A DNA stretch of 64,000 bases from Chloroflexota bacterium (GTDB lineage Bacteria > Chloroflexota > Anaerolineae > Anaerolineales > Villigracilaceae). Below are positions 3,608 through 6,399 of this stretch, piece after piece (within the stretch, counting starts at the first letter, position 1; each line of letters starts with the position of its first letter). The DNA lies in NCBI GenBank assembly GCA_021414245.1, contig JAIOOU010000003.1, positions 124,001 to 188,000 of the forward strand, in the 5' to 3' direction. The position numbers and the translations under genes were made by a program. Below the pieces are notes generated by a model. The model had not been told where the DNA came from. It did no database searches and saw nothing but the letters and a program-made list of their open reading frames with translations.

Positions 3608-3943
3608 CTACTCCTTTTCGGTCAGGTAGTGGAGCAGAACCAGCCCGAGGCCGAGAAAAAGCGGGACGAAGCCGCCCAGCATCCACGGTCCGAGATGAAG
3701 CGGGTAATTTTGACCTGAATCAAATCCGATCGGATAGAGTCCCAGCGAAAGCGCAAATCCAAGCGCGGAAATGGCAATTCCCCAACGAAGCAGGCCTTTT
3801 CCCGGTCTCACCTCGGGGCGGGTCAGGCCCTTTTCCGCAAGGGCAATCGTTTCCTTGTAGCTCATATAACGCATGAAGGCCAGGAACCCAAAGATGATGG
3901 CAAGTGCGGCAACACTGCCAAGGCAGGGGAATATGTCGTTCAT
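3608..3943 (-). CDS. small integral membrane protein
   Basis: 111 aa with about three hydrophobic segments. Confidence 0.65.
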   Translation of the reverse strand: MNDIFPCLGSVAALAIIFGFLAFMRYMSYKETIALAEKGLTRPEVRPGKGLLRWGIAISALGFALSLGLYPIGFDSGQNYPLHLGPWMLGGFVPLFLGLGLVLLHYLTEKE

Positions 3944-3998: not shown

Positions 3999-5303
3999 TT
4001 ACTTGATGACCGCGATGTTGATGCCTCCGCTATTGGTCTGGACGGTCAGTTGTTCGCCTCCGCCGTTGATGCTTCCCGCGATCCGGTCCTTCTCCGAATT
4101 GGAACTTCCGTTGGTGGTGACCGTGATGGGCAGGTCGGAACTGATGTCTCCAAAATCGGTGCTGAGATCCACCGAGAGCTGGCTGTCTGCCGGCAGGCTG
4201 AGATCGATGCCGCCAAAATCGGACTTGATCAGGTGCGGGCCCAGCCCGAGCGAGCCGCTGAATTCAACGGTGCCGCTGTTGGTCTTCAGGTCCAGGGTGA
4301 CGGACTCGGCATTCTCGATGCTGATGCCTCCGAAATCCGTATGGGCCTTGAGTTTGCCTTTTGCACCTTTTACGGTGATCGAGCCGCTGTTGGTGTGCAG
4401 ATCATAGGAGCCGGACATGGCCTGTTCGAGATCGATCTCACCAAAGTCGTTGTTCACCTTGATTTCACGGGTGATCGTCAGCCGGCTCAGCGAAACCTTG
4501 CCGCTGTTGGTTTCAACGGTGAGCGAAACCCCGGAACCGTTCTCGTATTTGATGTCGCCGAAATCGGATTTTGTGAATACCTCTCCGGCGGCCCGGACGT
4601 CGTTCAGTTTGATCGTTCCGCTGTTGGATTGCGCCTTGATATTTTTGGCATTGACCTTTTCGAGGGTGACCGAGCCGAAATCCGTGTGCAGGTCAACCTC
4701 TTCGCTGCCGGCCTTGACCGAAGTTGCGCTGATCTTGCCGCTGCTGCTGTCCACCGACAACCCGCCTTCGAGGTTTTCAACGTTCACGTCGCCAAAGTCA
4801 TTTGCGATGACCGCGTTTCCTTTAATGTCCGAGACGTTCACTTCGCCGAAGCTGGTGTCCACGTCCACGCTGGCGGCATTCGGGACCGTGACGATGAAAT
4901 CGACGGTGTTGATGTTGTTGCTTATGTTCATGGACTTCGGCAGTTCATATTTAAGGGTAATGGCATTGCCGTTCTGTTCGACGGTGTATTGGATGCCTTT
5001 CACCTCCTCGTCTGCGCGGGCCTGGGTTGAATCGTAGGCAGTCTTGACTACCTTGACCGTCACCGTCTGCACATCCGCACCCGTGACGGTGACATCGCCG
5101 GCATCGTCGGCTACTTTCAAGGTAATCGCCTCCTCTGCATCCACTTTGAGGGTTTTGCTCTCCTCCAATACGGAGGAGATGTTCCGCCTGTCGAACGGGT
5201 TGTTGACGGCGAAGCCGTTGGCAAAATAGATCACCGATCCGATGCCAACGCACACCAGAACCAGTGCGGCCACCAAAAGGGTTATTACAACAGGTCTTTT
5301 CAT
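3999..5303 (-). CDS. DUF4097-family beta-strand repeat protein with N-terminal membrane anchor
   Basis: N-terminal hydrophobic helix; repeated alternation of (S/T/N)DFGxI and TNSGxI/V motifs. Confidence 0.85.
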   Translation of the reverse strand: MKRPVVITLLVAALVLVCVGIGSVIYFANGFAVNNPFDRRNISSVLEESKTLKVDAEEAITLKVADDAGDVTVTGADVQTVTVKVVKTAYDSTQARADEEVKGIQYTVEQNGNAITLKYELPKSMNISNNINTVDFIVTVPNAASVDVDTSFGEVNVSDIKGNAVIANDFGDVNVENLEGGLSVDSSSGKISATSVKAGSEEVDLHTDFGSVTLEKVNAKNIKAQSNSGTIKLNDVRAAGEVFTKSDFGDIKYENGSGVSLTVETNSGKVSLSRLTITREIKVNNDFGEIDLEQAMSGSYDLHTNSGSITVKGAKGKLKAHTDFGGISIENAESVTLDLKTNSGTVEFSGSLGLGPHLIKSDFGGIDLSLPADSQLSVDLSTDFGDISSDLPITVTTNGSSNSEKDRIAGSINGGGEQLTVQTNSGGINIAVIK

Positions 5304-5358
5304 TTTCGTTCTCCTTGTTTACAAATTGCCGCTTAATGCGGTAGGATATTCCACTACC

Positions 5359-5387
5359 TTTGACAGGCTGGAAGCGAAAAAGTTTCA
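5359..5387 (-). promoter_or_regulatory. candidate ECF-type promoter for the DUF4097 gene
   Basis: minus strand reads TGAAAC (5387-5382)-N17-GTCAAA (5364-5359). Confidence 0.55.
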
Positions 5388-5420
5388 CCTTTTCCCGATC
5401 CGGAAAAGGCAGGCCCGGGG

Positions 5421-5449
5421 TGAAACTTTTTTCTGTTTTCCCTGTCTAA
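5421..5449 (+). promoter_or_regulatory. candidate ECF-type (autoregulatory) promoter for the sigma factor gene
   Basis: TGAAAC (5421-5426)-N17-GTCTAA (5444-5449). Confidence 0.55.
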
Positions 5450-5464
5450 CCCTGTAGAGAACCC

Positions 5465-6037
5465 ATGTCAGCCACGGAAACCACCCTCATCCAGCGCGCG
5501 CAGAAAGGCGATCATGACGCCTTTTCCGCGTTGGTCGATGCACATCAGCGTTATATCTACAATCTTGCCCTGCGCGTCGTCAAGGACGAGAACGAGGCCC
5601 TTGACCTGACGCAGGAAACGTTCGTCCGCGCCTGGACAGCCCTGCCCAATTTCAAAGGTCAGTCCCAATTCCGCACCTGGCTCTATCGCATCGTTACCAA
5701 CCTGTGCTACAACCGTCTGCCCAACCTGCGTCGCTCGCTTAATGACCTTGGGGATGATGTGCTGGAATACCTGCCTGAAACCGACTCCGGATTTGAGGAC
5801 CCTGCCCGGGAATTCGAATCCAATGAAACCAGAAGTCAGGTGGAGCAGGCCATGCAGGATCTGGACGAAAATTACCGGCTGCTGCTGACTCTGCGCTATC
5901 AGAACGAACTCTCCTATGAGGAGATCGCATCGACTCTTAACCTGCCGCTGGGTACTGTTAAAACCGGCATTTTTCGTGCGAAGGCACAACTGCGAAACAC
6001 GCTTGCCACCCTGGAGGACTCATGGATAACCGTTTAA
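5465..6037 (+). CDS. ECF-type RNA polymerase sigma-70 factor
   Basis: ALRVVKDENEALDLTQETFVRAW (region 2) and LSYEEIASTLNLPLGTVKTGIFRAKAQLR (region 4). Confidence 0.95.
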   Translation: MSATETTLIQRAQKGDHDAFSALVDAHQRYIYNLALRVVKDENEALDLTQETFVRAWTALPNFKGQSQFRTWLYRIVTNLCYNRLPNLRRSLNDLGDDVLEYLPETDSGFEDPAREFESNETRSQVEQAMQDLDENYRLLLTLRYQNELSYEEIASTLNLPLGTVKTGIFRAKAQLRNTLATLEDSWITV

Positions 6038-6399
6038 CCCCGGAAAAAGTAGATGCGCTTTTGGAGGATGCATTGAAAAACCAGCCGCTGGCCCCGATGC
6101 CGCGCAGCATCACTTCGAATGTGATGGCCCGCATCCAGAAAGATGCCCGCCCGGTCCTTGTGACCTGGAATGACTTTGCTTTAAGTCTGGTCATTGCACT
6201 AAGTATCGGCGCGGTTTTCTTTGCCCTCCAAAACCTGCCCCCGGTCCTGGTGGCAAAACTTCGCATGCAGGGCATCCTTTTCTATCACGACCTTCTGGTG
6301 AATGGCCGAACCCTGATTCCCGCCATCCTGTTTGGCCTCTCCGCCCTGCTGGCCGCATGGACCATTCCCTACTTGCGAAGGGAATACATGAAATCCTGA
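6022..6399 (+). CDS. putative membrane-bound anti-sigma-like partner
   Basis: overlaps the 3' end of the sigma gene; 125 aa with two hydrophobic segments. Confidence 0.55.
   Translation: MDNRLTPEKVDALLEDALKNQPLAPMPRSITSNVMARIQKDARPVLVTWNDFALSLVIALSIGAVFFALQNLPPVLVAKLRMQGILFYHDLLVNGRTLIPAILFGLSALLAAWTIPYLRREYMKS

Follow-up and report, generated by a model that had tools for sequence, protein, structure and literature searches.

Two divergent ECF-type promoters predicted between a sigma factor gene and a DUF4097 gene in a member of the Anaerolineae

The DNA between an ECF sigma factor gene and a divergently oriented DUF4097 gene in a Chloroflexota bacterium (Anaerolineales, Villigracilaceae) is best read as two divergent promoters, both of which would be recognised by the adjacent sigma factor. 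This factor would thus control its own gene, the divergent operon and a gene for a PHP-domain protein located elsewhere in the genome. We estimate the probability of this reading, derived from sequence comparisons, at about 0.92. The assignment of both promoters to this sigma factor follows from their genetic linkage and co-conservation. The proposal supplies an exact promoter motif, along with a testable regulon of small size, in a phylum where the control of envelope stress has hardly been studied, and it ties DUF4097, DUF6249 and PHP-domain proteins, otherwise uncharacterised, to one regulator.

Promoter motifs in the intergenic region

A preliminary description of the window (the whole stretch of 64,000 nucleotides that was analysed) had reported an inverted repeat in this region, and the repeat is indeed present at 5377–5432. 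Its 13-nt arms, AAAAAGTTTCACC at 5377–5389 and GGTGAAACTTTTTT at 5419–5432, are made up of two inverted –35 elements and their T-tracts, and the loop is not conserved. Read outwards, the arms give the two patterns that had been proposed. On the plus strand, towards the sigma and anti-sigma genes, the –35 element TGAAAC (5421–5426) with its T-tract is followed, after a spacer of 17 nt, by the –10 element GTCTAA (5444–5449), the predicted promoter spanning 5421–5449. On the minus strand, towards the DUF4097 and DUF6249 genes, TGAAAC (5387–5382) is separated by the same 17 nt from GTCAAA (5364–5359), so that this promoter spans 5387–5359. These are the only exact matches to the motif in the whole window. 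The promoters had been called facing; divergent is the right word, since they lie back to back with the –35 elements innermost.

In the 3.87-Mb genome, TGAAAC-N16..18-GTCWAA occurs exactly at three sites, each with N17; the pair at the sigma locus accounts for two. By count alone, this short motif is not above chance in the genome scan (3+1 sites with the reversed-pattern control), nor is there an excess when up to two mismatches are allowed (12 found vs 8.6 expected), and the plain genome count was not taken as evidence. The significance of the motif comes from its pairing within one intergenic region, from its conservation and from its extended form, TGAAACTTT-N13-TGTCNAA, which has three exact sites in the genome when about 0.007 would be expected with equal base frequencies.

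A purine is found 7 nt past the –10 element in all 34 sites of the genus, and it is preceded by T in 29 of them. This pattern predicts transcription starts at A5456 on the plus strand and at 5352 on the minus strand. Given that the ATG of the sigma gene sits 9–15 nt after the –10 element in the genus, the leader of the sigma mRNA would be very short, ~9 nt in the window (5450–5464 region) and about 3–9 nt across the genus, and translation of the gene may start on an mRNA with almost no leader. The predicted leader of the DUF4097 gene, ~49 nt, is normal and includes a Shine-Dalgarno sequence, AAGGAG, ahead of the ATG at 5303.

Conservation of the motifs and origin of the palindrome

The search within the genus comprised 60 relatives and the genome itself, and the sigma orthologues form a group with 76–100% identity. 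Full upstream DNA was available in 17 genomes, including its own (loci L034–L050). Both motifs, with 17-nt spacers, are present in 17/17 of these loci with a full sigma orthologue, and the consensus derived for the genus is TGAAACTTTT(T/C)(C/T)-N8-CCTGTC(T/A)AA. A wider set consisted of 41 Anaerolineae loci from named genomes, whose sigma proteins are 45–89% identical. Both motifs, with at most one mismatch, were found in 36 of the 41, whereas only one of 2050 block-shuffled controls had them both; the class loci share descent, and these counts are to be read as non-independent events. Exact motifs in the class set amount to 63 at a spacer of 17 and 5 at 18, the remaining spacers between 10 and 25 giving none; in Leptolinea sp. 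HRD-7 (L196), the spacer measures 18 nt on both sides. In five of the 41 loci, the search did not detect the sigma-side motif, and the paired motif was absent upstream of those paralogous ECF genes that were retrieved.

Within the genus, the arms are separated by anything from 33 to 106 nt, and most species share no related sequence between the –35 elements. In every species the arms pair only over TGAAAC, a few bases of the T-tract and 0–2 more pairs. The palindrome is therefore a by-product of two inverted promoters. In loci L036–L049, palindromic repeats that differ between species, of the GGACCATAGACCGT and CCCTCTCCC types, were observed between the –35 elements, as if the inter-promoter DNA served as a landing site for small repeats.

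A pair of identical half sites in inverted orientation between divergent genes could also be expected of an operator to which a dimeric regulator binds at both arms together. This is very improbable, since such a variable arm distance within one genus makes a fixed dimer geometry impossible and largely refutes the operator. What remains constant is the 17-nt distance from each arm to the GTC on its outer side, and the PHP gene is preceded by a similar site on its own. It had been suggested as well that the arms might act as a terminator-like hairpin. There is a terminator-like match on the minus strand, and the fold is somewhat more stable than that of shuffled sequences (z –2.3 on the plus strand, –1.3 on the minus strand). 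However, the palindrome lies upstream of both predicted starts, neither the loop nor the arm distance is conserved, there is no match to an Rfam family, and the arms match across species only to the extent that promoter conservation demands. A conserved GC-rich stem with a T-run downstream of a transcribed gene was not found here, and an intrinsic terminator or other RNA hairpin, largely refuted, can be given scarcely any credence. Conservation in orthologous loci had been put forward as a check of the promoters, with a hairpin kept and motifs lost as the pattern that would speak against them; the reverse is observed, with the motifs conserved and the hairpin not.

The regulon and the PHP-domain gene

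The genome-wide scan that had been suggested proved workable. The third exact extended site is found on another contig (G000:C10:86972-87000; L102:2001-2029), where it precedes a PHP-domain gene by ~65 nt, and similar sites recur before the orthologues of this gene in most sigma-bearing relatives. Inspection by eye indicated that a surE-like ORF comes after the PHP gene, and that the surroundings are a PhoR-like kinase on one side and a PstS-like gene on the other.

The 41 genomes of the genus contain 40 exact extended sites, 33 of which are at the sigma locus. The other seven are all just upstream of ORFs: five before the PHP gene, one before a gene for an ABC ATPase (G027) and one before a gene for a HlyD-type protein (G023). 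As a control for spacing, the extended motif with a spacer one base longer gave no exact site in the genus genomes. When one mismatch is allowed, further PHP genes appear, together with a second DUF4097 gene located elsewhere in the genome (L107, L108; G018, G031). When PHP upstream regions were scored with a weight matrix, leaving out two paralogous genes and six regions that could not be scored, a positive site was present in 14/16 regions from sigma-bearing genomes and in 5/12 from genomes without a detected full-length sigma orthologue, G019, where only part of the sigma gene is present, at the end of a contig, being counted among the latter. The PHP gene scored in the sigma-bearing genomes G009 and G007 had no motif. 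A scan of 13 genomes from more distant relatives gave 13 exact extended sites, 11 of them at the sigma locus, and the regulon thus looks small; weaker sites would be missed by such a scan.

It is conceivable that both promoters are real and are read mainly by another ECF sigma factor. Five more ECF matches at E ≤ 1e-20 exist in the genome, and a good motif is kept before the PHP gene in four genomes in which no sigma orthologue was detected (G032, G014, G033 and G020; loci L142, L140, L150 and L145). The sites in sigma-less genomes may be due to incomplete assemblies, to a recent loss of the sigma gene or to another ECF factor. On the other hand, the paired motif tracks this sigma orthologue across the class, the exact extended sites of the other genomes sit almost all at this locus, and the paralogous ECF genes were retrieved without the paired motif, all of which makes control by another factor unlikely. 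Control by the adjacent sigma factor of itself and of the divergent envelope protein, as originally suggested, is supported both by conservation and by the regulon scan.

According to this model of autoregulation by the adjacent factor, a signal, probably envelope stress, would free the sigma factor from a membrane anti-sigma encoded at 6022–6399. The complex of sigma and RNA polymerase would then bind TGAAACTTTT and CTGTC(T/A)AA on both strands, and transcription would start 7 nt past each –10 element. On one side, more sigma and anti-sigma would be made; on the other, the toastrack DUF4097 and DUF6249 membrane proteins. The PHP-domain gene would be the third target.

Products of the locus and comparison with known systems

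The gene at 5465–6037 on the plus strand encodes an ECF sigma factor of 190 aa that resembles SigW and RpoE. It has Sigma70_r2 at 23–89 and Sigma70_r4_2 at 125–176, scores above the TIGR02937 cutoff and, as is usual for ECF (group 4) factors, contains regions 2 and 4 only, with neither region 1 nor region 3. Its putative autoregulated promoter has the AAC-type –35 and the GTC/CGT-type –10 of this group. Its relatives in the PDB include chains with the labels sigma-H, E. coli sigma E and B. subtilis SigW. The protein misses the SigW equivalog cutoffs TIGR02948 and NF007223 (125 bits vs 243 and 149 vs 209, respectively), and we therefore regard it as an ECF sigma factor working like SigW/RpoE, not as SigW itself. 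The closest named relatives come from Anaerolineales MAGs (Chloroflexota), one of them labelled Candidatus Villigracilaceae.

Overlapping the sigma gene by 16 nt, a second gene (6022–6399, plus strand) encodes a membrane protein of 125 aa that is conserved across the sigma loci and is a putative anti-sigma. It has no zinc motif. Two cytosolic helices (7–20 and 28–41) are predicted, followed by two predicted membrane helices, which are preceded by the segment ALxxxPLxPxPxxxxxxVMxRI; the predicted structure has a pTM of 0.38. No Pfam match was obtained, and a sequence search of the PDB gave no useful one. With no Hx3Cx2C and only two cytosolic helices predicted, the protein falls outside the class I anti-sigma domain (ASDI). 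In a distant homologue (L200), an Hx3Cx2C region whose match to zf-HC2 is marginally below the cutoff (E 1.8e-4, 22.0 vs 22.2 bits) precedes the shared segment, and the product of 6022–6399 consequently looks like an anti-sigma lacking the zinc three-helix bundle. It may be a minimal anti-sigma. Known class I anti-sigmas contact region 4 through the three-helix bundle and region 2 through the fourth helix (PMC7406223), which by analogy suggests that the protein studied here may hold mainly region 2.

On the other strand, the divergent target (3999–5303) is a LiaG-like DUF4097/toastrack protein with an N-terminal membrane anchor, matching PF13349 with 101.8 bits vs a gathering threshold of 22.9, and the second gene of the divergent transcript (3608–3943) encodes a DUF6249 membrane protein. 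The class largely retains the order sigma – small membrane protein / DUF4097 – DUF6249. DUF6249 is the most conserved divergent partner: DUF4097 was not found at L182, L187, L189, L198 and L199, where the divergent gene is that of DUF6249. DUF6249 may be the core output.

A circuit of this type, with an autoregulated ECF sigma factor, a divergent target and a tiny regulon, is common and well known. A literature search on DUF6249 and on ECF factors in Anaerolineae returned nothing relevant, and the specific system appears to be undescribed in the searchable literature. As a tentative proposal, which we consider somewhat doubtful, it could represent a class-wide, self-contained envelope-stress module of Anaerolineae, comprising an ECF regulon of 2–3 promoters, a minimal short-helix anti-sigma lacking the three-helix bundle, toastrack/DUF6249 as the conserved output, perhaps with feedback on the sensor, and a nearly leaderless sigma mRNA.

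The promoter of B. subtilis SigW has been described as TGAAACN16,17CGTA (PMC2375139). The –35 element of the window is identical, the spacing is nearly so, and a putative anti-sigma adjoins the sigma gene, as in SigW/RsiW. Moreover, the alignment of the sigma factor with SigW extends over its length (5wuq, E 7e-28; NF007223, E 1.3e-43). The promoters depart from the SigW type in the –10 element, which is (T/G)GTC(T/A)AA instead of CGTA; distant SigW-like genes of Exiguobacterium have TGAAAC promoters with TGAAACATTT...CGTATA upstream. The locus also differs from SigW/RsiW in the lack of a zinc motif in the putative anti-sigma and in having a toastrack/DUF6249 pair as the divergent target.

In E. 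coli, RpoE (sigma E) uses a –35 element GGAACTT and a –10 element near GTCTAA. The core of the sigma-gene promoter, AACTT-N15-GTCTAA, fits this pattern, and the sigma factor aligns with chain A of 1or7 (E 1.5e-28). In contrast to RpoE, the –35 element starts with TGA and not with GGA, and the anti-sigma candidate has no sequence match to RseA structures. Judged by its motifs, the promoter is a combination of the –35 element and spacing of SigW with an RpoE-like –10 element.

Finally, a survey of the PSP system notes that, in some toastrack contexts, sigma factors are linked in the operon (PMC11237479). The locus has in common with Lia/PSP systems a membrane-anchored toastrack protein encoded close to a transcriptional regulator with a presumed role in envelope stress. 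It differs in that control would be exerted by an ECF sigma factor with a putative anti-sigma, no LiaRS-type two-component system being present at the locus, and in having DUF6249 as the partner.
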